DNA of 64,000 nt, taken from NCBI RefSeq assembly GCF_020667895.1, contig NZ_JAFMPS010000010.1, forward strand, positions 1-64,000, in the 5' to 3' direction. Below, piece after piece: positions 45,926 to 62,498 of the stretch (the first letter of the stretch is position 1; each line of letters opens with the position of its first letter). This DNA is from Alcanivorax sp. 1008 (GTDB lineage: Bacteria > Pseudomonadota > Gammaproteobacteria > Pseudomonadales > Alcanivoracaceae). Below the pieces are notes generated by a model. It was not told the DNA's origin. It saw only the letters and a program-made list of their open reading frames with translations, and made no database searches. The translations under genes were made by a program, and so were the position numbers.

Positions 45926-47938
45926 ATGAATTACTTCGTTACTGGCGCCACCGGCTTTATCGGTCGCTTTCTTCTCGCTCGCCTGCTCAGCCGCGAAGAC
46001 AGCCGCGTATTCGCACTGATTCGTCCCGGCTCGGAGTACAAACTGGATGCCATGCGCCGCCGCCTCAATGTGGAGCCGGAGCGTCTAGTGGGTATCAAGG
46101 GCGACTTGACCAAAAAAATGCTCGGCGTCAGCAAGCGGGACAGAGACGATCTTACCGCAGCGAAAATTGACCACTTCTTCCACTTGGCAGCGATCTACGA
46201 TCTCACCGCCGATGAGAACCAACAGCGCTATACCAATATTGAGGGCACTCGTAATGCCCTGCGCCTGGCGGAGGAGCTTAACGCCGGATGCTTCCATCAC
46301 ATCAGCTCGGTAGCAGCCGCCGGCCTGTATGAGGGCACCTTCCGCGAAGACATGTTCGACGAAGCTGGCGAGCTGGCCGATGCCTATCTGCAAACCAAGC
46401 ACGAATCGGAAGCGCTAGTGCGACTGGAAGCAAAGCTGCCATGGCGCATCTATAGACCTTCGATGGTGGTCGGTCATTCTCAAACCGGCGAGATGGACAA
46501 GATCGATGGCCCCTACTACTTCTTCAAGCTGATTCAGAAGCTGAGCGACGTACTGCCGCCTTGGGTACCGCTGCTGGGCATCGAAGGCGGCCAATTCAAC
46601 ATTGTTCCGGTGGACTTTGTTGCTAGCGCCATTGATCGCATTGCCCATGTGCCAGATCGCGACGGCCAGTGCTTCCATTTGACCGCCGACCGTCACTACA
46701 GCGTTGGCGAAGTGATGAATATTTTTGCCGGCGTGGCCGACGCGCCGAAAATGCCAGTACGCATCGATAACAGCGTTTTCGAATCCGTTCCGGGCATGGT
46801 GCGCAAGGGTATCAGTTCACTGACACCGGCCAAGTTTTTCCTCCATCAAGCCATGGAGGGACTGGATATCCCCGAGTCAGCACTGAAGTTTCTCAGCTAT
46901 CCAACCATCTTTGACAACAGCAATGCCAAAGCGACGCTGAATGGCAGCGGCATCGAAGCGCCTGAACTGGAAGCCTATGCTCAGCTACTATGGGACTACT
47001 GGGAAAACCATCTGGACCCGGACCGCGACGAGCGCGAAGACGATGGCGCACCTTCCATCAGCCTCGAAGAGCGAGTTTCCGGCAAGGTTGTGCTGGTCAC
47101 CGGTGCCACCTCAGGTATTGGTAAAGCGGCAGCCCTGAAGCTGGCTAGGGCCGGCGCCATCGTTCTGGTGGTAGCTCGCACTGCAGAAAAACTTGAAGAA
47201 ACCCTGCACGAGATTGAACAGCTTGGTGGCAAGGCATTCTCCTATAGTGCTGACGTATCACATCTGGATGACTGTGACCGACTGGTGAAGCAGATTATTG
47301 CGGATCATGGTCAGGTGGATATTCTGGTAAACAACGCCGGCCGCTCGATCCGTCGTTCCGTGGAGCACTCCTATGATCGCTTCCACGATTTCGAGCGCAC
47401 CATGCAGCTTAACTATTTCGGCGCCCTGCGTTTGATCATGCAACTGCTGCCATCAATGACCGAACGGGGCGCTGGCCACATCATCAATATTTCCTCCATC
47501 GGCGTACTGACCAACGCACCGCGTTTCTCGGCATACGTTGCTTCCAAAGCCGCACTGGATGCATTTACCCGTTGCGCCTCATCTGAGCTGGCCCATCACG
47601 GCATTCGCTTTACCACCATTAACATGCCGCTGGTGCGCACCCCGATGATCGCGCCGACCAAGATCTACAACCATGTGCCAACCATCAGCCCAAATCAGGC
47701 TGCTGACATGATCTGTGATGCCATCGTCCGCCAGCCCAAGCGCATCGCCACCAGCCTGGGCATCGTCGGCCAGGTGATGCACTTCCTGACCCCGAAGATC
47801 ACCGAAACCATCATGAATACCGGCTACAAGATTTTCTCCGACTCGTCTGCAGCACTGGGCCAGAAAGAGAAAACCCCGAAGCGGATCAGCCGGGAACAGC
47901 AGGCCTTCTCGCGGCTGTTCAAGGGCATTCACTGGTAA
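45926..47938 (+). CDS. fused fatty acyl-CoA/ACP reductase, fatty alcohol forming
   Basis: Reduces activated fatty acids to fatty alcohols in two NADPH steps, feeding wax ester synthesis. The 670-residue product has two Rossmann enzymes. Residues 1-360 form an extended SDR (FAR-type) with TGATGFIG (6-13) and Y154-x3-K158. Residues 385-660 form a classical SDR with TGATSGIG (392-399), NNAG (469-472), Ser in NISS and Y537-x3-K541. Length, domain order and long stretches (IEGTRNA, GEMDKIDGPYYFFK, PLVRTPMIAPTKIY) match the Marinobacter aquaeolei VT8 reductase Maqu_2507 from memory. It is divergent from a FabR/DesT-like regulator and ends at a strong terminator. Confidence 0.92.
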   Translation: MNYFVTGATGFIGRFLLARLLSREDSRVFALIRPGSEYKLDAMRRRLNVEPERLVGIKGDLTKKMLGVSKRDRDDLTAAKIDHFFHLAAIYDLTADENQQRYTNIEGTRNALRLAEELNAGCFHHISSVAAAGLYEGTFREDMFDEAGELADAYLQTKHESEALVRLEAKLPWRIYRPSMVVGHSQTGEMDKIDGPYYFFKLIQKLSDVLPPWVPLLGIEGGQFNIVPVDFVASAIDRIAHVPDRDGQCFHLTADRHYSVGEVMNIFAGVADAPKMPVRIDNSVFESVPGMVRKGISSLTPAKFFLHQAMEGLDIPESALKFLSYPTIFDNSNAKATLNGSGIEAPELEAYAQLLWDYWENHLDPDRDEREDDGAPSISLEERVSGKVVLVTGATSGIGKAAALKLARAGAIVLVVARTAEKLEETLHEIEQLGGKAFSYSADVSHLDDCDRLVKQIIADHGQVDILVNNAGRSIRRSVEHSYDRFHDFERTMQLNYFGALRLIMQLLPSMTERGAGHIINISSIGVLTNAPRFSAYVASKAALDAFTRCASSELAHHGIRFTTINMPLVRTPMIAPTKIYNHVPTISPNQAADMICDAIVRQPKRIATSLGIVGQVMHFLTPKITETIMNTGYKIFSDSSAALGQKEKTPKRISREQQAFSRLFKGIHW

Positions 47939-48111: not shown

Positions 48112-50304
48112 ATGGAAATCAAGGTCAACTATCTCGACAACCTTCGGCTCGAGGCAAAGTTTGACGACTTTACCGTCATCTCGGACCAGCCGATCCGCTA
48201 TAAGGGCGACGGCTCGGCGCCGGGACCGTTTGACTATTTTCTGGCGTCGTCGGCGCTGTGTGCAGCCTACTTCGTCAAGGTGTACTGCAACACACGCAAT
48301 ATCTCCACTGACAATATTCGTCTTTCGCAGAACAACATTGTCGACCCGGAGGATCGCTACAAGCAGATCTTCCGCATTCAGGTGCAACTGCCGGAAGACA
48401 TTAGCGACAAGGATCGTCAGGGGATCATTCGCTCCATCGAGCGCTGCACGGTAAAAAAAGTGGTGCAGGCTGGCCCGGACTTTCAAATTGAGACGGTAAA
48501 AAATCTGGATGACGATGCCCAGGCACTGCTGACAATAAAACCGGATAGCGACGCGCGAACTTTTATCGAAGGCAAAGACCTGCCGCTGGAACAAACCATC
48601 GCCAATATGAGCGCTATTCTGGCCAATCTTGGCATGAAGATCGAGATTGCCTCATGGCGCAATATCGTGCCACATGTGTGGTCACTGCATATTCGTGACG
48701 CGGCATCGCCGATGTGCTTTACCAACGGCAAGGGCGCCACCAAAGAAGCTGCTCTGTGCTCGGCACTCGGTGAATTTATTGAGCGGCTGAGCTGTAATTT
48801 TTTCTACAACGATCAGTATTTCGGCCAGGAAGTCGGTAACAGCGACTTTGTCCATTACCCGAATGAAAAATGGTTCCAGCCCGGCCCGAAAGGCGCACTG
48901 CCCAACGGCATACTCGATGACCACTGCCTGTCGATCTACAATCCCGACGGCGAGCTGCTGGGCACACACCTGCTTGATACCAACTCCGGCACCCCGGAAC
49001 GCGGCATTTGCGCCCTGCCCTATGTGCGTCAGTCTGACGGCGAAACGGTCTACTTCCCCTCCAACCTGATTGAAAACCTGTACCTCAGCAACGGCATGAG
49101 TGCCGGCAATACCTTGGCGGAGGCTCAGGTGCAGTGCCTGTCAGAAATTTTCGAGCGGGCCGTAAAAAAAGACATTATCGAAAATGAAGTGGCGCTGCCG
49201 GATGTTCCGGAGGCAGTGCTCAATCGCTATCCGCATATTCAGGAAGGCATCAAGGCACTGGAGGCGCAGGGCTTTCCGGTGCTGGTCAAGGATGCCTCCC
49301 TCGGCGGTGAGTTCCCTGTCATGTGTGTGGCCCTGATGAACCCGAAAACCGGCGGCGTGTTTGTCTCCTTTGGCGCTCACCCCAGTTTTCAGGTGGCACT
49401 GGAGCGCAGCCTGACCGAGCTGCTGCAGGGCCGCAGCTTTGAAGGTCTGAATGATCTGCCGGCGCCGACTTTTAATAGCATGGCTGTCACTGAACCCAAC
49501 AATTTCGTTGAGCACTTTATCGACTCCAGTGGCGTGGTGTCCTGGCGCTTTTTCAGCGCCCGCTCGGATTATGACTTCTGTGACTGGGATTTCAGCGGCA
49601 GCAACGAAGAAGAAGCCGCCACCCTGTTTGGCATACTTAAGGACATGGGCCATGAGTGTTATATGGCCGTGTTTGAAGATCTCGGCGCGCCGGTGTGCCG
49701 GATTCTGGTGCCCGGCTATTCCGAGATCTACCCGGTCGACGATCTGATCTGGGACAACACCAATATGGCGCTGGAGTTCCGCCAGGACATCCTCAACCTG
49801 CACCGGTTAGGCGACAACCAGCTGGCTGATCTGGTGCAGCGGCTGGAAGAAAGCGATCGCGACGCCTACATGACCATCATCACCCTGATCGGCATTGAGT
49901 TTGATGAAAACACCGTCTGGGGTCAGCTCACCATTCTGGAGCTGAAACTGCTTATTTATCTGGCGCTGGGCCAGCTGGATAGCGCTCTGGAACTGGTAGA
50001 GGCCTTTCTCCAGTTCAACGACAATACGGTGGAGCGCGGGCGCTTTTATCAAGCCATGCAGGCAGTGCTGGAAGTCACCCTGGATGACGATCTGGCGCTG
50101 GAAGATTATCTGGTCAGTTTCCGCCGTATGTTTGGTGATGACATCCTTAATGCCGTCATCGGCTCGGTCAACGGCAGCGTGCGCTTCCACGGCCTGTCCC
50201 CCACCAGCATGGCACTGGAAGGGCTCGACAAACATCAGCGGCTGATCGATAGCTACAAGAAACTGCATACAGCAAGACAGGCAGTATTTGCAACGAGTCA
50301 CTGA
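48112..50304 (+). CDS. OsmC-YcaO fusion protein
   Basis: The 730-residue product joins an OsmC-like domain (about residues 1-140, with GDGSAPGPFDYFLASSALC and later a Cys in ERCTVKK) to a YcaO domain (about 165-590). ATP-site motifs seen are SALGEFIERLSC and QCLSEIFERAV, the family's E-x3-E and Q-x3-E-x2-E-R patterns. A helical C-terminal domain follows, as in E. coli YcaO, which supports RimO-dependent methylthiolation of ribosomal protein S12 Asp. The Cys in the OsmC-like domain suggests sulfur or peroxide chemistry. No RiPP precursor or maturase is nearby, so the E. coli-like role is more likely than peptide modification. Confidence 0.88.
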   Translation: MEIKVNYLDNLRLEAKFDDFTVISDQPIRYKGDGSAPGPFDYFLASSALCAAYFVKVYCNTRNISTDNIRLSQNNIVDPEDRYKQIFRIQVQLPEDISDKDRQGIIRSIERCTVKKVVQAGPDFQIETVKNLDDDAQALLTIKPDSDARTFIEGKDLPLEQTIANMSAILANLGMKIEIASWRNIVPHVWSLHIRDAASPMCFTNGKGATKEAALCSALGEFIERLSCNFFYNDQYFGQEVGNSDFVHYPNEKWFQPGPKGALPNGILDDHCLSIYNPDGELLGTHLLDTNSGTPERGICALPYVRQSDGETVYFPSNLIENLYLSNGMSAGNTLAEAQVQCLSEIFERAVKKDIIENEVALPDVPEAVLNRYPHIQEGIKALEAQGFPVLVKDASLGGEFPVMCVALMNPKTGGVFVSFGAHPSFQVALERSLTELLQGRSFEGLNDLPAPTFNSMAVTEPNNFVEHFIDSSGVVSWRFFSARSDYDFCDWDFSGSNEEEAATLFGILKDMGHECYMAVFEDLGAPVCRILVPGYSEIYPVDDLIWDNTNMALEFRQDILNLHRLGDNQLADLVQRLEESDRDAYMTIITLIGIEFDENTVWGQLTILELKLLIYLALGQLDSALELVEAFLQFNDNTVERGRFYQAMQAVLEVTLDDDLALEDYLVSFRRMFGDDILNAVIGSVNGSVRFHGLSPTSMALEGLDKHQRLIDSYKKLHTARQAVFATSH

Positions 50305-50346
50305 CCAGCCACGTTTATTACATCGGATCTGCCAAACAAGTCCGCC

Positions 50347-50385
50347 AACAAAAAAGGCCCGGCAATTTGCCGGGCCTTTTTTGTT
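50347..50385. terminator. bidirectional terminator after the OsmC-YcaO gene
   Basis: Perfect 18-base arms (50347-50364 and 50368-50385), A- and T-runs on both sides, sharing its 29-base core with the terminator at 47964-48000. It separates convergent genes. Confidence 0.93.
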
Positions 50386-50401
50386 TATACCACTACGAGA
50401 T

Positions 50402-50424
50402 GAGTACGATTGAGGAGTACGATT
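50402..50424. repeat. short direct repeat
   Basis: GAGTACGATT occurs twice (50402-50411 and 50415-50424) separated by GAG, just past the terminator and running into the stop codon of the minus-strand lipoprotein gene. Confidence 0.6.
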
Positions 50425-53400
50425 ATTGGCATGTAACCTGGATATCGTTCACATAGTTCGGCACGGCATCCGCCGCCGGCATTACACCTGTGCCATTGGT
50501 GACCGAACAGGTCAAACCAAACAGGCCTGTGTACTGGGCAGTGATGTCGTAGGTATCGCCCGGTGCCAAGGTGCTCGGCATGGTGAAGCTGCCACCCTGA
50601 CCCGAATCATTAAACAGGAAGTTAATAAACTCGAAGTTATCCAAGTCTTCAATGTCCACACTGTCGAAATCATCCAGCCCAGTCACAGTACCGCCCACGG
50701 AGCCTGCTGCAGGATCACTGCCACCGCCGCCATCGAAGCTGCACTCCAGCGACAGATTGGTAATGTTGGTGGTGCCGATGGTGCCGCTGCCATTGGTGAC
50801 GGCGCCACAAGTAGTGCCGATCGAAGTACCGATCACGGTGACATCATAAGTAGCGCCTTCGGGCATGTAGATACTGTTGAAGGCCAGACCCGCGCCGGTG
50901 CCGGTAAGGTCAATCTGCTGGGCGCCGGTAGCACTGTTCACCACCGAGAGCTGCACGCTTGCGCCGTCCACCAAGCCGTTAACAATGCCAGTCACGCGGG
51001 CGCCCTGGCAGGCAATATCGACAGTGACCTGAGCGCCTTGCGGCGAATCGCTCTGGCTGCTCAACTGGCACTGCAAACCACTCGGCACCGAGGTCAGCTC
51101 CAGCTGGTAGGTGCCGGTAAAACTGTCCGCAAAGAGATAATCGCCGTTAGCGCTCAACAGGGCGAAGGCCGGGCCAGTATTACTGTCAGTGTTCTGTAAC
51201 GCCAGAGTTTCACCGGCGGGTAATCCGGTGAGCAACCCGCCAAGGCTGAACGCGGCAAACCCCTCACAACTGACTTCCACAACAGCAAACACATCGGAGT
51301 CATAGTTGATCGGCGCAACGCCATCGCCACCTTCCAGCGAGCACAGCAGGTTGCTCGGATTGGCGCCGTTGATTGTCACGCTGAAGCTCTCGCCCGCATC
51401 AAGCGTTGATGGAAAGCTGAACTCGCCATTGGCATCAACGACCACCGAATCATCGCCATTGGACAGCGTGACTGACTGGTTGGGCTGCAGCCCGGTGGCG
51501 GTGCCACCGAGTGTCACTGGCAGCACCTCTTTCAGCGTGCAATCCACTGCAACATTATTGATATTGTTGCCAATCATGGTGCCGCTGGCGTTGCTGACGG
51601 TACAGCCGAATTGCGGCGCGATATCACCAACGGTGACCGTATAGGTTGCACTCACAGGCACCGGCGAAAGAAACTGCCACTGATCCTGACTGCCGAAGAT
51701 CGCCAGCTTGTCTTCGCGCTGCTTGCCATTGGTTTCGGTGGATGTGAGGGTCAGCTTGAGTTCCGCGCCCTCGGGAAGACCAGTCAAGGAGCCCCCCACC
51801 AGTTGTTGTAGACCAGCCGCCAACTGCGTCATCAAATCATTGTTGCAGGCATTCAGAGAACAGATTTTTCCGCGCACATCGGCCGGCAGCTTGATGATTT
51901 CCGATTCCACATGCGCTTGTGCATCGGCCTTACTCACCAGCGTAAAGGTACTGCCGACAGTACTGGAAATGCTCGACAGCAGGGTCTCGGCAGCGCTGGC
52001 AAACTCCTCATCCGTGCCGCCCAGATCGATATCAATGCTCTGCGCGCTAAGATCCGGCAATACAATCTGCGTCGGATCGCCGCTGGTATTTAGAGACTGC
52101 AACAACTGGGCTATGCGCAAACCTCTTTCCGGGGTTTCACCCAGACCCGCCAGCTGGTAGACGTGAACGGCTTCGGCGCAATCAGTGCTGCCCAGGGCAA
52201 AGTTTCCAAGATAGAAAGCGACCTGCTCGCCGGCTTTGCATTGGTATCCGCCATTGGCATCGGTAAAGCGCATTTCGGAGCCCAGTTTGCTGACGTAAAT
52301 TGGTACATCATCGAAGATCCGGCCAATGGAGCTCTGGTACGTCAACCCACCGGTTACAAGTGCTAACTGGCCGTTACTGGATACGGCCGCTGTTTTCCAT
52401 CTCTCTGATGGTGGCCATACAACATCCACACTCCAACTCTTCCCGCCATCGTTGGAACGGTACACTTTGCCCAGCCATTCGGCGGCCAGCAAAATGCGCA
52501 TGTCCGCAGACCCGGCGATTGCCTCAATGTTCTTGCCTGCCAAAGTGACCTGCACGCCACTTTGTGTATGCAGCTCCACCCCTTTCGCCGTGGCCAGGGC
52601 GACCACATCACCGGCGGCGGACAGCGCTGCATCCCGAACTGGCTCACCATTGGTTGCCAGAGGCAGCCAAGTGTTGCCGTCATCCACCGACAGACTGGCG
52701 GTGGTGCCGCCCACGGCGAGAAGGCGCGCACCATCCGCGGAGACCATCAAGCGGTTTTCATCTTCGGCCGGTGAACCGGTCAGCGCTGCCCAGCTGAGAC
52801 CGCCATCATTGGAGCGATAACGGCAGACATCTCGCTGCTCCCCAGCGTCCCAGAGCTGCGCGTCACTGCGCGTATCTTTTCCGGAGAAGTAAAGCTGCTG
52901 ACCATCTGCGGACAGACTGACCTCCGAGGTGCGGCACAGGGCTGATGTTGGTGCCGGTCGCTCTACCCATGTCTCGCCGCCATCGACAGACACCAGCAGC
53001 GGCAGGGCCGCGCTGTCATTGCGTTGCGGCACGACGATGGTCTGCCCATCCGCTGATACCGCCACGCTGCCGGTAGCCCCGGCATCTCTGTTAAAGAAGC
53101 TACCCGTTACAGGGGACTGCCGTCGATTCGATGGCCAGCTCGCACCGCTGTCCGTGGAAAGCCAGATAGCGTACTCACTCAAGGCGAACATACGTGAGCC
53201 GTCTGCGGACATCGCCACGCGTCCCCAGATATCTTCAGAACGCGATACTTCACTCCAACCTCTGATGCGGTAACCCAGCCCCTGCACCGGCGCATCAATA
53301 AACACACCATCGGCCTTCGACTCCGCCGGGAACAGTCGTCCATCACCACCACCGCAACCCGCAACGAGCCCGACAACCAACAGGGTCGCCCCCCATAGTC

Positions 53401-53449
53401 TCACGCCATAAGCTGGACCCTGTGCGATCACCGGACTCACTGCTTTCAT
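50423..53449 (-). CDS. large lipoprotein: Asp-box beta-propeller plus five GG-x-x-TGL repeats
   Basis: The 1008-residue product begins with a lipoprotein signal and lipobox VAGC (Cys 32). Residues about 70-380 carry five Asp boxes (STDSGASW, SVDGGETW, SNDGGLSW, SVDDGNTW, SNDGGKSW). These alternate with seven SADG-type repeats such as VAMSADGSRMF and VSLSADGQQLY, which suggests a seven-bladed propeller. A 150-residue linker domain follows. Five beta-rich repeats then begin with GGSLTGL, GGTATGL, GGLLTGL, TGIVNGL and GGTVTGL, each with paired Cys. No catalytic sialidase residues were recognised, so an adhesive or sensing surface role is inferred. Start ATG 53449 has GGAG; ATG 53470 is an alternative. 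Confidence 0.78.
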   Translation of the reverse strand: MKAVSPVIAQGPAYGVRLWGATLLVVGLVAGCGGGDGRLFPAESKADGVFIDAPVQGLGYRIRGWSEVSRSEDIWGRVAMSADGSRMFALSEYAIWLSTDSGASWPSNRRQSPVTGSFFNRDAGATGSVAVSADGQTIVVPQRNDSAALPLLVSVDGGETWVERPAPTSALCRTSEVSLSADGQQLYFSGKDTRSDAQLWDAGEQRDVCRYRSNDGGLSWAALTGSPAEDENRLMVSADGARLLAVGGTTASLSVDDGNTWLPLATNGEPVRDAALSAAGDVVALATAKGVELHTQSGVQVTLAGKNIEAIAGSADMRILLAAEWLGKVYRSNDGGKSWSVDVVWPPSERWKTAAVSSNGQLALVTGGLTYQSSIGRIFDDVPIYVSKLGSEMRFTDANGGYQCKAGEQVAFYLGNFALGSTDCAEAVHVYQLAGLGETPERGLRIAQLLQSLNTSGDPTQIVLPDLSAQSIDIDLGGTDEEFASAAETLLSSISSTVGSTFTLVSKADAQAHVESEIIKLPADVRGKICSLNACNNDLMTQLAAGLQQLVGGSLTGLPEGAELKLTLTSTETNGKQREDKLAIFGSQDQWQFLSPVPVSATYTVTVGDIAPQFGCTVSNASGTMIGNNINNVAVDCTLKEVLPVTLGGTATGLQPNQSVTLSNGDDSVVVDANGEFSFPSTLDAGESFSVTINGANPSNLLCSLEGGDGVAPINYDSDVFAVVEVSCEGFAAFSLGGLLTGLPAGETLALQNTDSNTGPAFALLSANGDYLFADSFTGTYQLELTSVPSGLQCQLSSQSDSPQGAQVTVDIACQGARVTGIVNGLVDGASVQLSVVNSATGAQQIDLTGTGAGLAFNSIYMPEGATYDVTVIGTSIGTTCGAVTNGSGTIGTTNITNLSLECSFDGGGGSDPAAGSVGGTVTGLDDFDSVDIEDLDNFEFINFLFNDSGQGGSFTMPSTLAPGDTYDITAQYTGLFGLTCSVTNGTGVMPAADAVPNYVNDIQVTCQ

Positions 53450-53841
53450 CAAATCACTCCGTACTGCCATTGAATATTTCTCTCTTTCACGCAGTAATCT
53501 CGGGAAACCACGACGTATCGAGAAATGAATGACATTCTCATTTGCAAAGACCACGCCACAACTAGTGATCTACCCACAAAATACTGCCGCCCCCGCCAGC
53601 ACTGCTTCTGCAGCTCCCCGCCTTCATATCGGCAGTGCGAAGCCATGATTCCATTGCGCCACTAACTGTCACTTTAGGGTATCAACCTGACGCCCTGCGG
53701 CAGCAAAAGCCGCAATAGAAGCAGAACCTCCGGCCAACAACGCCCTCCTGTCACCAGTCGACATCTTTCTCCCCCCTGTGTACTGGCGCAAAAAGCAGCA
53801 CAGAATAGACTTCCCTCGTTCCTGACAACCGGAGAATTACC
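53450..53841. other. intergenic region between the propeller lipoprotein and the SDR operon
   Basis: This is a divergent gap of 392 bases. It holds a small minus-strand frame at 53669-53764 (separate entry), an AT-rich stretch near 53520-53560 with a weak dyad, and no consensus promoter that I trust. A CAGAAT about 40 bases before the SDR start could be its -10. Confidence 0.4.
53669..53764 (-). pseudogene. 31-residue frame resembling a twin-arginine signal peptide (gene remnant or microprotein)
   Basis: The frame starts at ATG 53764 behind an excellent GGGGGGAGAAAG ribosome site. It encodes an Arg-Arg pair in GDRRALL followed by the hydrophobic stretch AGGSASIAAFAAAG, then stops seven residues later. 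That is the layout of a Tat signal peptide with no mature protein. I could not find a continuing frame with recognisable similarity. It could be the 5' end of a decayed gene or a genuine short membrane peptide. Confidence 0.4.
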
Positions 53842-54840
53842 ATGTCACGACGAATCATGATTGGCGGCATCGCCCTTGGCGTACCCGACTTTCGCCCCCA
53901 TGCGAAGCGGTTTGTGGATGGCGCTGCCCGGGGAGTACATCAGCGGCTGATGCCCGGTGCGGCGTTGCGGCGCCGGGTAAACGGTAAGGTGGTGCTGATC
54001 ACCGGCGCCAGCTCCGGTATTGGTGCGGGTGTTGCCCACAAGCTGGCCGAAGCCGGCGCCACGGTGCTACTGACTGCCCGTTCTGCAGATGCTCTGGAGG
54101 ATCTGGCCGAGAAGATCCGCGATAACGGTGGTGAGGCGGTGGCCTACCGCGCCGATATCGCCGACCTGGACGACTGCGACCGTCTCTGCCAAAAGGTGCT
54201 TGAGGATCATGGCCGGGTCGACATCCTGATCAATAACGCGGGCCGCTCGATCCGCCGCTCGGTGGTCTATTCGCTGGATCGCTTCCATGACTACCAGCGC
54301 ACCATGCAGTTGAATTACTTCGGCGCCATTCGTCTGGCCATGAACCTGATTCCGGCAATGAAAGCCCAGGGTGACGGCCACATCATCAATGTCACCACCG
54401 TCGGCGTATTCAACGGCGTGCCGCGCTTCTCCGCCTACCTGGGCTCCAAGTGTGCGCTGGAAGGCTGGACGATGGCGGCGCAAAACGAGCTTTTACATAC
54501 CGGCATCAGCTTTACCCTGATGAACTACCCACTGGTGCGCACGCCGATGATCGCGCCCACCAAGATCTATGATTACTTCCCGGCCATGAGCCCGGAGAAG
54601 GCGGTGGACTGGATGTGCGAAGCGATTGTCACCCGACCAAAGCGCAAGGTAACCGCATTTGGCCTGTTCTCTCAGGGCATGTACACGGTGCTGCCGAAGA
54701 CCGCCGAACTGATCGTCAATACCGGCTACCAGATCGTCCCGGAGTTCTTCGGCAAGGAGAAGAAAGGCTCTGAAGGTAAGTCGTCACTCGCCAGCGACGA
54801 GACCGGTAGCAACGTTCAGCCGCTGCGCCGACGTAAGTAA
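53842..54840 (+). CDS. short-chain dehydrogenase/reductase, paralogue of the fatty acyl reductase C-domain
   Basis: The 332-residue product is a classical SDR: TGASSGIG (54-61), NNAG (131-134), Y199-x3-K203. Its sequence closely follows the C-terminal half of the reductase at 45926-47938 (shared NNAGRSIRRSV, RTMQLNYFGA, PLVRTPMIAPTKIY, VNTGY). The usual catalytic serine position reads Thr (INVTTVG), unlike NISS in the reductase. The 45-residue N-terminus is basic and hydrophobic and could associate with membrane. It heads a four-gene plus-strand run. I infer reduction or oxidation of a long-chain aldehyde, alcohol or ketone. Confidence 0.85.
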   Translation: MSRRIMIGGIALGVPDFRPHAKRFVDGAARGVHQRLMPGAALRRRVNGKVVLITGASSGIGAGVAHKLAEAGATVLLTARSADALEDLAEKIRDNGGEAVAYRADIADLDDCDRLCQKVLEDHGRVDILINNAGRSIRRSVVYSLDRFHDYQRTMQLNYFGAIRLAMNLIPAMKAQGDGHIINVTTVGVFNGVPRFSAYLGSKCALEGWTMAAQNELLHTGISFTLMNYPLVRTPMIAPTKIYDYFPAMSPEKAVDWMCEAIVTRPKRKVTAFGLFSQGMYTVLPKTAELIVNTGYQIVPEFFGKEKKGSEGKSSLASDETGSNVQPLRRRK

Positions 54841-54940
54841 GCCCGGGCGGGCCGATTGAAACGCTCTGGCTTGGCCGATGGTGCAGCGCAGGCTGCGCGA
54901 AAGGACAAGCCAAAAGCATTAGATCAGCTACACTCGGAAC

Positions 54941-56875
54941 ATGACTGAAGCTCTGACTGACATCCTGCCCGACCTGCCGCGCCCGGATACCGCCCGGGCG
55001 CTGGTGCGAGCCATGCTGCCCGCCGGTGAGCAATTACCGGCCGCCGATGCCGAACGCATCTGCGCCACTGTTGCCGGCTATTTAAAAGGTCGTCCCGGCT
55101 TTCGCCGGTTACTAGCCAGCAGCTTGCTGTGGCTGGAAAGCCGCTCCCTGTTCAGCCATGGCAAACGCTTTAGCCGGCTAACCCCGGATCAGCAAAAGGT
55201 GGTACTCAAAGACCTGTCCGGTACGCTGATCAGTGGTCATCTGCTGCGCGCGCTGGCAGCGCCATTCAAAGCCGCCTGGCTACTGGATGACGATACCCAG
55301 CGCCGGGTCGGTAGCCGTCCGCCGGTGCAGGTGCCCAAGCAGATTGAAGCGTTCCGCTGGCAAGCTCAGGTCAGCCCGGCACGAGATATGGAAGAGGACA
55401 TGGAACTGGAAGCCGATGTGGTGGTGATCGGCACCGGCGCCGGCGGCGCGGCCGCTGCCTACGAGCTGGCCAGCCGTGGCTTGGCCGTAGTGATGATTGA
55501 GGAAGGCGAGTACTACAACCGCACCCACTTCAACGGCAATCTCACCGACGCTGTGGCGAAACTATATCGCGGCCTCGGCGCCACCACTGCCCTGGGCAAT
55601 GTCACCATTCCGGTACCCATCGGTCGTAGCGTCGGTGGCACCACCACGATCAATTCCGGCACCTGTTTGCGTACCCCCGATGCAGTGCTGGCGCGCTGGC
55701 AAAAAGAGTTCGGCTTGACCGAGCTGACATCAGAAAATCTTGATCCCTTTTTTGCCAGCGTCGAAGAAGTTATCAATGTCACACCGGCGGAAGACAAATA
55801 TGTTGGCGAAATCGGCAACGTGATCGCCGACGGCGCTCGCAAGATCGGCCTTACCAAGCTGCACAATCTGCCGCGCAACGCTAAAGGCTGCGATGGCCAA
55901 GGCCTGTGTCAGTTCGGTTGCCCCACGGATGCCAAACAATCAACCAATGTCAGCTATGTACCCCGGGCACTGGATCGCGGTGCGTTTTTATTTACCGGCT
56001 TTCGCGCAGAAAAGCTGTTGCACCGCCAGCAGCAGCTGGAAGGTGTGGAGGCCACCGGCAAGCGTGACGACGGCAGCATTGTTCGCCTGACAGTGCGCGC
56101 CGCGAAAGTGATTGTCGCCATGGGTAGTCTGTTGACGCCGCTGTTTCTGAAACAAAATGGCGTGCGCAACCCGCATCTTGGTCGTCACCTGACGATTCAT
56201 CCCGCCGGGGTGGTCAATGCCATTTTTCCGGAGCGCGAGTTTGCCAATTCGCAAACCATTCCACAGGGTTTCGGTGTCGGCGATTTTGCCGAGCAGGGGC
56301 TAATGTTCGAAGGTGGCACCATTCCGTTTGCCGGCCACGGTCTGTTTAGCAATCTTTATGGCCGTGACTTTGTCGACTTCTGCGAGCGCTACCAGAACAC
56401 CGCCTACTTCGGTTTCATGATCCGTGACACCAGCGAAGGACGGGTGCGCCGAGGCCCACATCGCGATGTACCGTGGATCAGCTATCAGATGAACGATCAG
56501 GATTTCCGGCTTTTCCTGAAAGGCGTTGAAACACTGGCGCAAATCTATCTGGCTGCCGGCGCCCGTGAAGTAATGATTCCAGGCCTCAACCGACTGATCA
56601 CAGTGCGCAATGAACAGGAGCTGGCGAGCTTTATGGCGCGCAAGCACAAGCCAAAGGATTTCCTGATGAGCGCCTATCACCCGCTCGGCACCGCGCGCAT
56701 TGCCGCCGATGTCAGCCGCGGAGTGTGCGGGCCGGACCATCAAGTATTTGGCTGGAACGGCCTGTATGTGATGGATGGCAGCAACGTACCCACCAGTCTG
56801 GGCGCCAACCCTCAGGTCACCATTATGGCGCTGGCTGCCCGTGCCGCATCAAAAATTGCAGACTCACTCTCTTAA
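54941..56875 (+). CDS. GMC-family FAD oxidoreductase, long-chain alcohol oxidase-like
   Basis: The 644-residue product has an N-terminal helical extension of about 155 residues, then the FAD loop GTGAGG (164-169). A cysteine-rich GCDGQGLCQFGCPTDAKQS follows, then the C-terminal catalytic HPLGTARIA and PTSLGANPQVTIMALA. The extension and Cys-rich segment recall plant and yeast long-chain fatty alcohol oxidases and related bacterial proteins more than choline dehydrogenase. It starts 100 bases after the SDR and 12 bases precede the next gene. A role in oxidising long-chain alcohols or sterol-like alcohols is inferred. Confidence 0.86.
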   Translation: MTEALTDILPDLPRPDTARALVRAMLPAGEQLPAADAERICATVAGYLKGRPGFRRLLASSLLWLESRSLFSHGKRFSRLTPDQQKVVLKDLSGTLISGHLLRALAAPFKAAWLLDDDTQRRVGSRPPVQVPKQIEAFRWQAQVSPARDMEEDMELEADVVVIGTGAGGAAAAYELASRGLAVVMIEEGEYYNRTHFNGNLTDAVAKLYRGLGATTALGNVTIPVPIGRSVGGTTTINSGTCLRTPDAVLARWQKEFGLTELTSENLDPFFASVEEVINVTPAEDKYVGEIGNVIADGARKIGLTKLHNLPRNAKGCDGQGLCQFGCPTDAKQSTNVSYVPRALDRGAFLFTGFRAEKLLHRQQQLEGVEATGKRDDGSIVRLTVRAAKVIVAMGSLLTPLFLKQNGVRNPHLGRHLTIHPAGVVNAIFPEREFANSQTIPQGFGVGDFAEQGLMFEGGTIPFAGHGLFSNLYGRDFVDFCERYQNTAYFGFMIRDTSEGRVRRGPHRDVPWISYQMNDQDFRLFLKGVETLAQIYLAAGAREVMIPGLNRLITVRNEQELASFMARKHKPKDFLMSAYHPLGTARIAADVSRGVCGPDHQVFGWNGLYVMDGSNVPTSLGANPQVTIMALAARAASKIADSLS

Positions 56876-56887
56876 AGGAGAAAAACC

Positions 56888-57340
56888 ATGGCCACCGGAC
56901 TTTTGCTTTGCGAAACCATGAGCGGCGACTTCACTCTCGACGCTGACCATGTCGCACAGCCATTTGCATTTTCTATTCGTGCCTTTACCACCAGGATTTT
57001 TAGCCTGAGTACGCCGCGCTATTTTCGTGGCACGGTGACACTGGCTGGCGTTGACTATCCCTGTCGCGGCGAGCTGACCATTCACGTCGGGGGCCCTCAT
57101 TACTGGCTCGAGTTCAATCATCCACAGTTGGGCAAGGTCCGCGCAGAGGGGCACAAAACCTACAGCATGAACGGGCTGGTCAAATCGCTCACCACCTGCC
57201 CGCTAGAAATCAGCAGCAATGGCCAGCGCATTGGCTCGGCGCTGGTTGCCTATCGCGACTCCATGTTGGCGTTTCCGTTCAAGGCCCTGCGCCTGGTCGA
57301 TGAGCAAAACGCATTTAGCGCTGCCGGCAGCGCATCATGA
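56888..57340 (+). CDS. small beta-rich protein of the GMC gene cluster
   Basis: I do not recognise a named family. The 150-residue product starts MATGLLLCETMSGDF and continues with alternating beta-like segments (YFRGTVTLAG, YPCRGELTIHV), ending in an Ala/Ser tail. The ETMSG-x-F opening recalls a small domain seen beside or fused to actinobacterial cholesterol-oxidase-like GMC proteins; this is from memory and uncertain. There is no signal peptide. AAAGGAG precedes the ATG. Its stop overlaps the next start as ATGA (57337-57340), which indicates tight coupling with both neighbours. Confidence 0.65.
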   Translation: MATGLLLCETMSGDFTLDADHVAQPFAFSIRAFTTRIFSLSTPRYFRGTVTLAGVDYPCRGELTIHVGGPHYWLEFNHPQLGKVRAEGHKTYSMNGLVKSLTTCPLEISSNGQRIGSALVAYRDSMLAFPFKALRLVDEQNAFSAAGSAS

Positions 57341-58314
57341 TTCCCTATCATGGCTGTCAGCACGGTGGTCAGCCGGGTCACTATGAGTCCTGGTTTCTGC
57401 GCGCCAACCACCCTTCAAAAGCACAGGCATTCTGGATTCGCTACACCCTGTTTGTGCCCAAGGATAAACGCCCGTCGCTGGGTGAGCTTTGGGCCATCTG
57501 GTTTGATGGTGAGCAGGACCGGGTGATTGCGGTCAAGCAGGAACACCCTTTGTCCGACTGCGAATTCGGCGCCGGTGAAATGCAGGTCCGCATCGGTGAT
57601 TCGCGCCTTGAAAGCCACCAGCTTAGCGGCAGCGCCCGCCACAATGGCCACGAGATCAGCTGGAATCTCGGCTATGAGGGCGAGCCACAAACCCTGCTAT
57701 TTCTGCCAGAGAATCTGTACAAAGCCCGCCTGCCGAAAGCCAAGTCCGTAGTCAGCCGTCCTCAGGTGTGCTACCGCGGCAAGCTGGTGGTGGATGGCGA
57801 AGAGATGATCATTGACGGCTGGGCGGGCAGTGAAAATCATAATTGGGGCAGCCAGCACACGGACCAATACGCCTGGGGTCAGGTGGCAGCTTTTGATAAC
57901 GCCCCTGGGGCCTTCCTTGAATGTATTACTGCCCGAGTCAAGGTAGGGCCCCTGCGCTCCCCATGGATGAGCATCGCCTGCTTGCGTTTGGATGGGCGGG
58001 ACTATCTATTTAACAGTTTGGGGCGAGCATTTCGTGCGGACGGTCGCTACCACTTCTTTGACTGGCAGCTGCAGACCAGTAACGGTCGCGAAGGCCTCAA
58101 GATTTCCATGAGTGCGCCGGCAAACCACTTCACCGCCCTGACCTATTACAACCCACCCAAAGGCAGCAAGACCTGCCTGAACAGCAAGATTGCCCGCTGT
58201 CAGGTCACTCTGGAAAGGCCGGGCGAACCGCCCTTGATCCTGACCAGCAGCCATGGCGCTGCCTTCGAGATCCTCACAGACCGTAACGATCACGGCGTAC
58301 CACTATCAGTCTAA
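57337..58314 (+). CDS. AttH/CrtC-like (carotenoid hydratase-fold) protein
   Basis: The 325-residue product is beta-rich and resembles the two-lipocalin fold of hydroxyneurosporene synthase (CrtC) and AttH. The key stretch is GWAGSENHNWGSQHTDQYAW, with E166, H168, N169 and W170. CrtC adds water across an isoprenoid double bond; other members have unknown activity. No carotenoid genes lie in the window. Coupling to a GMC oxidase and an SDR suggests modification of a hydrophobic lipid or isoprenoid. It is the last gene of the run and is followed by a strong hairpin. Confidence 0.68.
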   Translation: MIPYHGCQHGGQPGHYESWFLRANHPSKAQAFWIRYTLFVPKDKRPSLGELWAIWFDGEQDRVIAVKQEHPLSDCEFGAGEMQVRIGDSRLESHQLSGSARHNGHEISWNLGYEGEPQTLLFLPENLYKARLPKAKSVVSRPQVCYRGKLVVDGEEMIIDGWAGSENHNWGSQHTDQYAWGQVAAFDNAPGAFLECITARVKVGPLRSPWMSIACLRLDGRDYLFNSLGRAFRADGRYHFFDWQLQTSNGREGLKISMSAPANHFTALTYYNPPKGSKTCLNSKIARCQVTLERPGEPPLILTSSHGAAFEILTDRNDHGVPLSV

Positions 58315-58319
58315 CCGTG

Positions 58320-58362
58320 CATTATGGCGGCACCTTCATAACAGGGTGGTGCCGCCATAATG
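58320..58362. terminator. long hairpin at the end of the SDR-GMC operon
   Basis: Perfect 15-base arms, CATTATGGCGGCACC (58320-58334) and GGTGCCGCCATAATG (58348-58362), with a 13-base loop. It starts just past the plus-strand stop and lies before the convergent DUF1080 gene. There is no T-run, so Rho-independent action is doubtful. Confidence 0.5.
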
Positions 58363-58403: not shown

Positions 58404-59549
58404 TCAGAATTCCCGGAAATGCACTCCACGATATTGCATGCGCAGTGCATCTTGCTCCTTGGAGGGGAGCATCAAAAGAGGGAAAGGTGCCAATGGACCG
58501 GCCAAACCCCAGTCATGTCTGTTCTCAAAAGGATTCTTCGATACATGCAGCTGGAATGAAATCCTGCCTGGACGGGAAACACCGCACTCACGGTTTTTTC
58601 CAAGGTAACATTTTTTCCACCACCACTCGTAATAGTGCGGCTCTGCGTTTCGCAAGATAACGCGACCATTCAATGCCGTGGTGACCCTGCCGTCCTCATA
58701 ACGGATATACAGAGTATTCCACTGACCACCACTCTTGTAGGGATGATCTGCGCGGCTTCTTATTCCCTCTGCCCTTAATACTGAGAGCGCCTGATCCTCT
58801 CTCATATATACACGACTACCAAGCTGGGGCGAATGAGTCTTCGGGGTCAACCACTGGTAAGAGTCGCGTGTCTCATCGAATATGAGACCAGTACGCATTG
58901 GACCAGGGTCTATGTCCCACGGTACGAGACGCCGCTGGGGCTCCACTGCGTGGACATCAACTTGCGGACCATTCATCCAACCACCCTGGGGCAGGCCGAA
59001 CGGAAGCATAGACTGTATCTCAAAAATATTCGGAGCACGGTTCGGGTTATCCGCACTTGCAGGCTGCCATTGTGAGGCGAATTGAATTCCACTATTCCCC
59101 TGATTCCCCTCCAGCGCACGAAACTGGGTAATAAACTCGAAGTTCCCTTCAAATTGATTGCTATACTCCAAATTGATGTATCCGTGCCCTTCACCTGACA
59201 GAATCGCCTTTCCTCTGGTATCGATCTCAATAGCCTGATCTTGGCGGTTGTAAGTAATACCATGCTCTGCATATCGCGACCGCGGCAGAGGGGCGTAGTA
59301 TTCACTTCCCTTGCCGGTGACATATACGTTCCAGTATTTTTCAAAATCGTTATAAAAATTAAACCTCTCCCAGCCACCATACTGGCCGCCAGGCGCACAG
59401 GAAGACTGCCATACCTCACTGCAATCGTAGTCTGGCACTCCTACGGAGGCTGCAAGAACATATCCCGATAACGCTGTGGATATTAGCGGTGCAATTAGGA
59501 ACCTAAAAAAATAGGAACAAATATTATTCATTCTTCCTGCTTGTTTCAT
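58404..59549 (-). CDS. secreted DUF1080 (3-keto-disaccharide hydrolase / GH16-like) protein
   Basis: The 381-residue product has a Sec signal peptide (cleavage near VLAAS) and a concanavalin-like domain. Matching elements are NSGIQFASQWQP, the central FEIQSMLPFGLPQGG and DVHAVEP, WNTLYIRYEDGRVTTALNG near the end, and ISFQLHVS; the chain ends MQYRGVHFREF. Several Cys suggest disulfides. DUF1080 proteins include hydrolases of 3-keto-glucosides. The coding DNA is AT-richer than its neighbours, which suggests recent acquisition. ATG 59549 has GGAG upstream; ATGs at 59591 and 59531 are alternatives. Confidence 0.75.
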   Translation of the reverse strand: MKQAGRMNNICSYFFRFLIAPLISTALSGYVLAASVGVPDYDCSEVWQSSCAPGGQYGGWERFNFYNDFEKYWNVYVTGKGSEYYAPLPRSRYAEHGITYNRQDQAIEIDTRGKAILSGEGHGYINLEYSNQFEGNFEFITQFRALEGNQGNSGIQFASQWQPASADNPNRAPNIFEIQSMLPFGLPQGGWMNGPQVDVHAVEPQRRLVPWDIDPGPMRTGLIFDETRDSYQWLTPKTHSPQLGSRVYMREDQALSVLRAEGIRSRADHPYKSGGQWNTLYIRYEDGRVTTALNGRVILRNAEPHYYEWWWKKCYLGKNRECGVSRPGRISFQLHVSKNPFENRHDWGLAGPLAPFPLLMLPSKEQDALRMQYRGVHFREF

Positions 59550-59956
59550 AATTCGGATCTCCCCAGATACAGCACCTGAATTTTTACGCATAATTTTCTA
59601 CCCACTATGTGAGCGTTCTATGCCGGGCTTAGCTGTTCGGCGAGTGGATTAAAATCGGTTCCATAGCCGCTTTCCGCCACCTTTTAACAAATGCCTGCGG
59701 CTGGCTATCGAGTAACTGAAAATACATGCCTGACAATAAGTGGAAGGAATGATGGCAGAGGACAGAGTCCATACAAACGCACTAGCAGAAAGTCAGGGCA
59801 GGTATCACCACGGATAAGGCGCTGGAGCGGCATATTTGGTGAGCTTCGCGGAAGTGCGCATCTGCCCACAAAGGGCTATTATCGATAACTTGCCATGCGG
59901 TCTTGTGTGCTGGCGTGGCACCCGGCACAGGATCAGTTCGGGTACGGAGGGACACC
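59550..59956. other. intergenic region upstream of the adenylate cyclase
   Basis: This is a divergent gap of 407 bases (its left end is the alternative 5' part of the DUF1080 gene). I see no consensus promoter, repeat or convincing gene. An in-frame extension of the cyclase reaches 59903 without a better start. One tiny frame near 59750 with a GGAAGG site codes 22 residues and was not accepted. Confidence 0.4.
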
Positions 59957-61483
59957 ATGGCTGGCAGTACAGCAGGATCACATCAGACGGGAGCGCGCAT
60001 CAGACAGAAGCTCAGTAACGTGCGTCGCAACCTCAGTGACGGCATAGCGCCGCTACTACCCGAGTATTTCCCGGTTGCCTGGAAACTGGGCCTGTCAATT
60101 TCCATCATGATCCTGCTTGGCATGGCCGTTCTGGGCAGCGTTCTTATGAACAGCCAGCTCTCCAGAATGCAGAATCAGGCAGATGAATTTGGCGGTACAC
60201 TCGCCCAGCAACTGGCTGACACGACCCGCGAGCCACTGCTGGCAGAGGATCGCTTCAGCGTCAACATTATTCTCGGCAACCTGCTGCAAAGTGAGTCACT
60301 ACATGGTGCCGCCTTGTTCGACAGTAATGGTGTGCTGATTGAGCAGGTAGGCTCATTGCCAAAGGACATTCTGCCCACCGCCAATAGCAACATGCTGCGC
60401 TGGCAAAATGGTGCAGAGCTGCTAACCACTTACTTCGCTCCGGTAAAAGTGAATGAACTGACCGCAGGCCATGCCGCAATCAGCCTTTCCCGGGCGCCAA
60501 TTGATGCGGCCAGAGAGGAAGTACGACAAACCATTCTTACCGCCACCATGGTGATGAGCCTGATCGCCATTATCGTAGCGTTCCTGGTCAGCCGTCGCCT
60601 GTCTCGGCCTATCCACGACCTGCTGGAAGCGGCCACCGCCTTACGCGCTGGCAATCTGGAGTTTCGCCTATCCGACCGGCGCAATGATGAGATCGGCCAG
60701 CTGGTTGATGCCTACCACAATATGGCATCCGGTTTACTGGAAAAAAGCCAGGTCGAAAAGGTCTTGTCGCGCTTTGTCAGTCCGACTGTTGCGAAGAAAA
60801 TGATGTCAGACCTCAAGCAGGTTTCTCTGGGCGGCCGTGAGGTGGAAGCCACAGTTGTGTTCGCTGACATTGTTGGCTTCACTCGCCTGTCAGAAAGCAT
60901 TGCACCAGACGCAGTGGCTGAATTGCTCAACGCCTACTTCGATGCAATCTCCATGGCCGCTACTTTCTACCGCGGCACCATTGATAAATACATGGGTGAC
61001 TGTGCCATGATAATTTTTGGCATACCCGAAGACGACTCCGAGCACAGCTATCACGGCCTATGCTGTGCAATCATGATCCAGCGGTTAGTTGATCGGCTAA
61101 ACGTCCTGCGCAGCAGCCAGGGCCTGACCACGGTAAATTTCCGCATCGGCATCAACACCGGCACCATGCTGGCAGGCAACCTTGGCTCCCACGACAGGAT
61201 GCAGTACACCGTCGTTGGTGACGCTGTGAATCTTGCCTCGCGACTATCCAACATGGCTGGGGCGGGAGAAGTGGTTGCCTGTTCTGAAATGGTAACCAAG
61301 CCCAATATTCAGTCGCGCGTACGGATACGCCAATCCGGTGCCATGCGCGTTCGAGGCCGCTCGGAATCGGTGAATACCTTTATCGTTGAGGGGGTTCATG
61401 CCCAATCAGAAACGCTGATGGAACAACGCATTGCAACTTTTATCAATCAACTTATGGACTTGCATCTTCGTGCAACTGAATAA
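59957..61483 (+). CDS. membrane-bound class III adenylate cyclase with HAMP domain
   Basis: The 508-residue product has a membrane helix at about 41-65, a periplasmic sensor of about 130 residues, a second helix at about 193-212, a HAMP domain, and a C-terminal class III cyclase. The two metal aspartates are D304 (FADIVGF) and D348 (MGD). The substrate-specifying pair is K344 and D422, which predicts ATP rather than GTP, and N425/R429 are the transition-state residues. All catalytic positions are intact. ATG 59957 follows GGAGGG. The next gene starts within its last codons. Confidence 0.9.
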   Translation: MAGSTAGSHQTGARIRQKLSNVRRNLSDGIAPLLPEYFPVAWKLGLSISIMILLGMAVLGSVLMNSQLSRMQNQADEFGGTLAQQLADTTREPLLAEDRFSVNIILGNLLQSESLHGAALFDSNGVLIEQVGSLPKDILPTANSNMLRWQNGAELLTTYFAPVKVNELTAGHAAISLSRAPIDAAREEVRQTILTATMVMSLIAIIVAFLVSRRLSRPIHDLLEAATALRAGNLEFRLSDRRNDEIGQLVDAYHNMASGLLEKSQVEKVLSRFVSPTVAKKMMSDLKQVSLGGREVEATVVFADIVGFTRLSESIAPDAVAELLNAYFDAISMAATFYRGTIDKYMGDCAMIIFGIPEDDSEHSYHGLCCAIMIQRLVDRLNVLRSSQGLTTVNFRIGINTGTMLAGNLGSHDRMQYTVVGDAVNLASRLSNMAGAGEVVACSEMVTKPNIQSRVRIRQSGAMRVRGRSESVNTFIVEGVHAQSETLMEQRIATFINQLMDLHLRATE

Positions 61484-62498
61484 ATTCGTCACTCTGTTAA
61501 GCGTACTGCTCTTTAGCGGATGCACCCATCAGGCGCTGATGGAGTCTGATCTAAACAGCGAGCTGGGCAGCGCCCGAAGCAATGCGCAATACGCAAAGGC
61601 GCTAAGTATCATTAGAAAAACGCCAGACGAGCATCCTCAGTATCAGCTCATTCAACAGCAACGAGAAGCGGTGCTCAATGAGATTACTCTGCACCTGCAA
61701 GGGCGAATTGCGGAGGCTGACAGACTGACCCGAAGCGGTCGCTGGCAAGAGGCATTTAGCCTGATCAGTGATCTGGACAAGCAGTGGCGCGGCAACGAAG
61801 ACATTACTGCCGCTCGACAAACACTGGAACACCGCCGACATCAACGGCTGCAGCAACTACGCGCTGACCTGCTATCGTCAGAGGCTGATTGGCTTCTAGC
61901 CCATAGAAGCAGCATTAACCAACTGGAAACGCTAGCCAACCGGCAAGCGGACAATTTGGCCAGCCAAATCCAGCATAGACAGTCGGACTTGGCTGATGAA
62001 ATGTCTCAACTAGGTTATTTCTTTGCAGAACAAAATGACTGGCGGCGCACCCAAGTACTACTTGGCGGTGCCCGGAAGCTGCGGGATTCGGAGGAGTATG
62101 ATCCGCTACTCACGGAGGCAGAAAGGCAACTGGCTGGCGCCGCTCACCGGCGTGAACAGGCCGCCAGTGCGCGTACCCAGCAGCGCGCCAATGCGCTGAT
62201 TGAAGCATATCGAAAATCAGACTCCATCAATGACCTGGTTACCGCCCGCGACTACCTGCAGAAAAACAATGAGGATGGCAGCCTGGATGAAATAGCCTCC
62301 GACCTGGAGAGTCTGTGCCGGGAACGCTTCGATCAGGGAGTGCGCAAGGGCGATCGCCTTTATGCGGCAGGCAATTATCCTGAGGCAGAAAAAACATGGC
62401 AGGAAGTCTTACCTTTGTATCCAGGCGATGGTGACTTATCAGGAAAAATTCAGCGGGTACAGCGCGTGCTGAGCAACTTACAGAACCTGAAGCGCTGA
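61470..62498 (+). CDS. TPR-like lipoprotein coupled to the adenylate cyclase
   Basis: The 342-residue product starts at GTG 61470, 14 bases before the end of the cyclase gene in another frame. It has a lipoprotein signal with lipobox FSGC (Cys near residue 18). The rest is almost all helical, charged and Gln/Arg/Leu-rich, with TPR-like units (for example LTRSGRWQEAFSLISDLDKQ and LYAAGNYPEAEKTWQEVLPL). No enzyme motif was seen. The overlap suggests it works with the cyclase, perhaps on its periplasmic side; this is inference. Confidence 0.75.
   Translation: MQLNKFVTLLSVLLFSGCTHQALMESDLNSELGSARSNAQYAKALSIIRKTPDEHPQYQLIQQQREAVLNEITLHLQGRIAEADRLTRSGRWQEAFSLISDLDKQWRGNEDITAARQTLEHRRHQRLQQLRADLLSSEADWLLAHRSSINQLETLANRQADNLASQIQHRQSDLADEMSQLGYFFAEQNDWRRTQVLLGGARKLRDSEEYDPLLTEAERQLAGAAHRREQAASARTQQRANALIEAYRKSDSINDLVTARDYLQKNNEDGSLDEIASDLESLCRERFDQGVRKGDRLYAAGNYPEAEKTWQEVLPLYPGDGDLSGKIQRVQRVLSNLQNLKR

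Follow-up and report, generated by a model that had tools for sequence, protein, structure and literature searches.

The LaoA-LaoB pair is described as a Tat-dependent long-chain alcohol dehydrogenase in the title of a work cited by PMC10779009, and the substrates of LaoAB span C12-C24 (PMC13291428). Known LCAOs are GMC proteins (PMC9299179), and pristane was the only substrate on which a GMC protein of Alcanivorax borkumensis similar to the yeast fatty alcohol oxidase FAO1 was seen (PMC6850023). Activity of CrtC was abolished by mutations of His239, Trp241, Tyr266, and Asp268 (PMC4717167).

We analyzed a locus encoding a GMC protein and an AttH/CrtC-like protein in a window of 64,000 nucleotides from Alcanivorax sp. 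1008. An earlier note on this DNA had proposed a four-gene operon consisting of an SDR, a GMC enzyme, a small beta protein, and an AttH/CrtC-like protein. The four ORFs, their spacing, and their broad families were as claimed, judged by ORF coordinates, Pfam, and structure matches. The features of the locus are listed below.

45926..47938, + strand: FAR, two-domain fatty acyl-CoA reductase (NAD_binding_4 + adh_short, Pfam); context gene
53842..54840, + strand: SDR, lone reductase akin to the C-terminal half of FAR; goes with FAR, not with the cassette
54941..56875, + strand: GMC, putative FAD-dependent GMC alcohol oxidase/dehydrogenase; predicted catalytic subunit of the cassette
54989..55222, + strand: Gluconate_2-dh3-like N-terminal domain of GMC (residues 17-94; PF13618)
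56888..57340, + strand: BETA, small, predicted all-beta partner protein without a Pfam family
57337..58314, + strand: ATTH, predicted double-barrel AttH/CrtC/tocopherol-cyclase-like protein
58320..58362, no strand: perfect 15-bp inverted repeat with a 13-nt loop, directly 3' of the ATTH stop

SDR and GMC were separated by 100 nt and GMC and BETA by 12 nt, and BETA and ATTH overlapped by 4 nt (ATGA), according to the ORF list and the sequence. The inverted repeat lay where ATTH and the gene at 58404-59591 converge, occurred as a single exact copy within the window, and may terminate the cassette transcript. Scans for consensus promoters and terminators gave matches no better than chance.

GMC, BETA, and ATTH form a three-gene cassette

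Gene content was compared in 46 Alcanivoracaceae genomes. The relatives of the window genome included an Alcanivoracaceae MAG at 94-97% protein identity as well as Alcanivorax jadensis, A. hongdengensis, and Alloalcanivorax venustensis. A GMC orthologue and ATTH were found in the identical 25 genomes, and both were missing from the other 21; FAR was present in 45 of the 46. Presence of the cassette was patchy inside genera (2/3, 11/17, 4/13, 4/7, 1/2, and others). Shuffling within genera put the chance of an identical GMC/ATTH pattern at ~5e-10, a value that is too small because relatedness inside genera remains. The gene order was GMC-BETA-ATTH in every family locus covering the whole stretch, usually with FAR immediately upstream and an adenylate cyclase gene and a further gene downstream. 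In six genomes (G189, G199, G205, G216, G222, and G224) the cassette was missing whole, with FAR and the cyclase still neighbors. The unit is a three-gene cassette, GMC-BETA-ATTH, which is either there in full or missing altogether. We found no description of this triad in the open-access literature searched. The cassette was also absent from G185 and G203, which we tentatively take to be A. borkumensis and A. dieselolei, respectively; if these assignments are right, its absence from model strains may explain how it escaped study.

The SDR did not follow the cassette. It was kept in G222 and G224, which are free of the cassette, and was missing from all g178 cassette-bearing loci examined, and we therefore regard it as a companion of FAR. 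Since SDR goes with FAR, the four genes are not one unit: of the proposed operon, the last three genes held together by co-occurrence, and the SDR dropped out as a member. Its proposed kinship to FAR was borne out, in that SDR was 58% identical to the C-terminal half of FAR and matched the NCBIfam model PRK07201 over model positions 331-630 of 657. FAR has the architecture of the PRK07201/FAR-type fatty acyl-CoA reductases, whereas SDR resembles their C-terminal half and is without the acyl-CoA reductase half. All stand-alone SDRs grouped in one clade (support 100/100), apart from the FAR C-terminal halves, and this clade also took in the C-terminal half of the second FAR present in G229. As the simple reading, this tree, whose root is unsure, suggests that SDR is the remnant of a duplicated FAR after loss of the N-terminal half. 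The second FAR of G229 (L048:432-2423) was a tandem two-domain gene.

The surroundings varied in other respects. FAR and SDR were adjacent in several relatives, unlike in the window, where the stretch between them (48112-53554) held a gene for an OsmC-YcaO fusion and a large gene with BNR repeats (minus strand). Downstream of the FAR/cassette locus, the window carried a HAMP/adenylate cyclase gene and a next gene without a Pfam family (59903-62498), and these two were found downstream in most family loci examined, cassette present or not.

Recurrence of the cassette outside Alcanivoracaceae

A cross-species scan with the GMC alignment, using one genome per species, yielded 80 loci that were kept. 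These were selected via GMC motifs, which biases them toward true orthologues, and BETA and ATTH next to GMC were detected by iterated profiles. The triad was complete in 45 of the 53 loci in which GMC had flanks of 3 kb or more on both sides; neither partner was found in 7, and BETA alone accompanied GMC in 1. The triad recurred in Gammaproteobacteria outside the family and also in contigs from Myxococcota and Gemmatimonadota. Most Gammaproteobacteria had the order GMC-BETA-ATTH, and most Myxococcota-type contigs the order ATTH-BETA-GMC; elsewhere ATTH, or ATTH together with BETA, was divergent. Their shared genomes and their recurrence in several phyla mark the last three genes as far more than a chance grouping. 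The earlier note had named a lack of co-occurrence elsewhere as evidence against its proposal; co-occurrence was instead seen for GMC-BETA-ATTH, in 25/46 family genomes (GMC and ATTH) and in other phyla, and not for SDR.

When 369 evenly sampled genomes of the class were searched, strong matches to GMC, BETA, and ATTH coincided in G000 (the window genome), G007, and G392; the exceptions were weaker GMC paralogues and, in G037, a partial ATTH at the edge of a contig. The sequence distances of the three proteins correlated across 61 loci (r 0.85-0.93). GMC and BETA shared a single stop-free frame in five loci (L124, L128, L140, L141, and L145), and BETA and ATTH a single frame in L103. Such fusions in separate genomes suggest a physical association, possibly a complex in which BETA is central. 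Seeming interruptions by stops or frame breaks occurred in ATTH of L033 and L081 (which look like one and the same gene) and of L144, in BETA of L053, and in SDR of L046; sequencing error or decay may account for them.

Most gammaproteobacterial cassettes outside Alcanivoracaceae had housekeeping surroundings, not FAR; several lay among genes for ribose-5-phosphate isomerase, threonine dehydratase, or a serA-like protein. These surroundings indicate that the cassette is self-contained, and they also mean that the link to FAR may be local. The cassette is a real, conserved, self-contained three-gene module. An aldehyde dehydrogenase gene was close to the triad, or to ATTH (L093), in 11 distant loci. 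At L093:13416-15952, ATTH stood apart from GMC and adjoined the same-strand aldehyde dehydrogenase gene. No ATTH was found on viral contigs and no BETA on plasmids. Plasmid GMC matches were rejected as cassette members, since they belonged to other subfamilies at 25-34% identity.

Domains and predicted folds of the three proteins

GMC carried both GMC Pfam domains above the cut-off (PF00732, E 2e-46; PF05199, E 7e-20). Across 20 orthologues, H580 (YHPLGT) and N623 (ANPQVT), which we take from family knowledge to be the GMC catalytic pair, were invariant, and the Cys motif GCDGQGLCQFGCPTDAKQST was conserved. The N-terminus of GMC matched PF13618 with 27.5 bits against a cut-off of 23.4, and this Gluconate_2-dh3-like domain was matched in 9/20 orthologues. 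No signal sequence, including a twin-arginine (RR) one, was seen in GMC, BETA, or ATTH. GMC is a plausible long-chain alcohol oxidase, as had been proposed, or a dehydrogenase, and would be cytosolic. Among the PDB matches of GMC there were no characterized FAO proteins; the nearest solved sequences were choline oxidases, not long-chain alcohol oxidases, which argues against a long-chain substrate as far as sequence likeness goes.

BETA gave no useful Pfam match in any of its 48 members. Its conserved residues were E9, G13, G48, G61, Y72, and K90, and its model was all-beta (pLDDT 76) with weak lipocalin-type matches (best PDB E 5e-3); BETA is probably a small barrel. Derivation of BETA from a single barrel of ATTH was considered and rejected, as profile similarity between the two was absent (hhalign E 0.09).

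The AlphaFold model of ATTH (pLDDT 91) matched AttH in Foldseek (2ich, E 3e-10, TM 0.56-0.59 on the query), with further matches to kievitone hydratase (7a0q, E 5e-9), the Fsa2/Phm7 pericyclases, and 25-phosphosteroid lyase. As modeled, ATTH has two orthogonal lipocalin-like barrels in the AttH/CrtC/kievitone-hydratase fold; together with the GSENHNWG stretch, this upheld the carotenoid-hydratase fold recognized earlier. Within GSENHNWG, H168, N169, and W170 were invariant and position 195 was always Glu or Asp in 45 sequences across phyla; Glu17, Ser18, His174, Tyr270, Asn282, Lys284, and Glu311 did not vary either. Tocopherol_cycl was weakly matched in 20/45 members (best 2.6e-6). A search of PDB with the ATTH sequence gave matches at chance level, and the PF07143 model was not matched; ATTH had remote profile similarity to PF07143 proteins (hhalign E 6e-4). 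ATTH shares the double lipocalin-like barrel and the HNW motif with the CrtC/kievitone hydratase/AttH/tocopherol cyclase superfamily. It differs in its ~10-15% identity to solved members, the unmatched PF07143, a partial CrtC catalytic set, and its constant GMC partner.

A proposed oxidation system for long-chain alcohols

Based on these results, we propose that GMC-BETA-ATTH works as one cytosolic system that would oxidize long-chain primary alcohols to aldehydes with the help of two lipocalin-like partners, a reading we put at about even odds. GMC would be the flavin-dependent catalytic subunit, as an oxidase or a dehydrogenase, BETA a small barrel tightly bound to it, and ATTH a lipocalin-like double barrel linked via BETA that holds or passes on the water-insoluble alcohol or aldehyde. 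The AttH-type, lipocalin-like fold is often lipid-binding and BETA is fused to both partners, and for these reasons we prefer a carrier role for BETA and ATTH. Long-chain alcohols are expected in these cells, because FAR should make fatty alcohols and the window genome has two wax-ester synthase genes. Since the cassette adjoins FAR in Alcanivoracaceae, it would return fatty alcohols derived from FAR, from alkanes, or from wax hydrolysis to the level of aldehyde and acid; in distant lineages the nearby aldehyde dehydrogenase would take the next step. Of the fatty, isoprenoid, and sterol-like substrates considered earlier, the nearby FAR, the wax-ester synthases, and the aldehyde dehydrogenases linked elsewhere favor fatty alcohols, and isoprenoids and sterols less so. 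The cassette probably carries out a familiar type of alcohol oxidation with a novel set of subunits. This proposal predicts that the Pfam-less BETA and the AttH-like ATTH are subunits of a flavin alcohol oxidase that occurs both in Alcanivoracaceae, which degrade hydrocarbons, and in myxobacteria.

The main rival to the carrier role is that ATTH is itself an enzyme, a hydratase, dehydratase, lyase, or cyclase of the CrtC, kievitone hydratase, or tocopherol cyclase type; the cassette would then convert a hydrophobic alcohol, unsaturated or isoprenoid, in two steps, much as the earlier note had suggested. The conserved polar residues of ATTH look catalytic rather than merely structural, its fold matches (kievitone hydratase, Fsa2/Phm7, 25-phosphosteroid lyase) are enzymes, and Tocopherol_cycl was matched. 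The invariant H168 and W170 and the acidic position 195 recall His239, Trp241, and Asp268, three of the residues that CrtC needs (PMC4717167). However, when ATTH was set against CrtC by these published residues with the acid placed on Asp268, the position matching Tyr266 was not conserved (F/M/L/Y/V/W). PF07143 was unmatched as well, and the neighbors of the cassette that were scanned included no terpenoid genes. Moreover, we know of no catalysis for AttH, which has the same fold. Taken together, a catalytic ATTH appears unlikely, while remaining a serious competitor. A bolder version, in which GMC and a catalytic AttH/CrtC-type subunit are joined through the Pfam-less barrel in a three-subunit complex that couples oxidation with hydration, dehydration, or isomerization of a lipid alcohol in several phyla, seems to us rather doubtful. 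The cassette makes it possible to ask which role the widespread AttH/CrtC fold plays outside carotenoid hydratases.

The system might instead serve biosynthesis or detoxification, turning one particular lipid alcohol into an aldehyde or an acid, such as when membranes or wax are modified, and would then not be a step of degradation. FAR and the wax-ester synthases are anabolic, and the cassette occurs in Myxococcota and other lineages that, to our knowledge, are not hydrocarbon users. Against this stand the aldehyde dehydrogenase linked in distant loci and the patchiness of the cassette in a family where FAR is hardly ever missing, a pattern that points to an accessory trait; we consider such a role improbable. 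BETA and ATTH could also be mere passengers or regulators beside an ordinary GMC oxidase. As 8/53 well-flanked GMC relatives had no BETA, ATTH, or both nearby, GMC may indeed work without partners. Yet the exact co-occurrence, maintained through several gene arrangements, and the six fusion loci make the passenger role very hard to credit.

The proposed oxidation system is loosely analogous to LaoAB. Like LaoAB(CR) of Pseudomonas aeruginosa, it would act on long-chain alcohols through a GMC-type catalytic protein dependent on a small partner, and distant cassettes have an aldehyde dehydrogenase nearby, as LaoABCR has LaoC. The window genome (G000) also contained, on contig C47 (L058:1541-6039), two GMC genes, and ahead of each lay a gene for a small protein that carries a twin-arginine signal; of these small proteins, the first matched Gluconate_2-dh3 (PF13618). 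Going by the description of LaoAB, these pairs resemble LaoA-LaoB. A Gluconate_2-dh3-like module is shared by the window GMC and the first of the C47 pairs; when GMC was compared by profile to both LaoB-like proteins, the support was weak. The cassette differs from LaoAB in that this part is fused to the N-terminus of GMC, a Tat signal is unseen, and two all-beta partners are added. No separate small subunit with a twin-arginine signal, as in LaoAB, was found beside the window GMC. Equating GMC-BETA with LaoA-LaoB was rejected, because the LaoB-like proteins are another family (with a Tat signal and, in one, PF13618), BETA is without PF13618, and the module sits in GMC.

Yeast and plant FAO enzymes (EC 1.1.3.20), likened here by description, share with GMC the superfamily and the likely substrate class, and we know of no AttH-like partners for them. 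G185, tentatively taken as A. borkumensis, had no close orthologue of the window GMC, and the FAO1-like GMC protein of that species is therefore a parallel and not the same gene.
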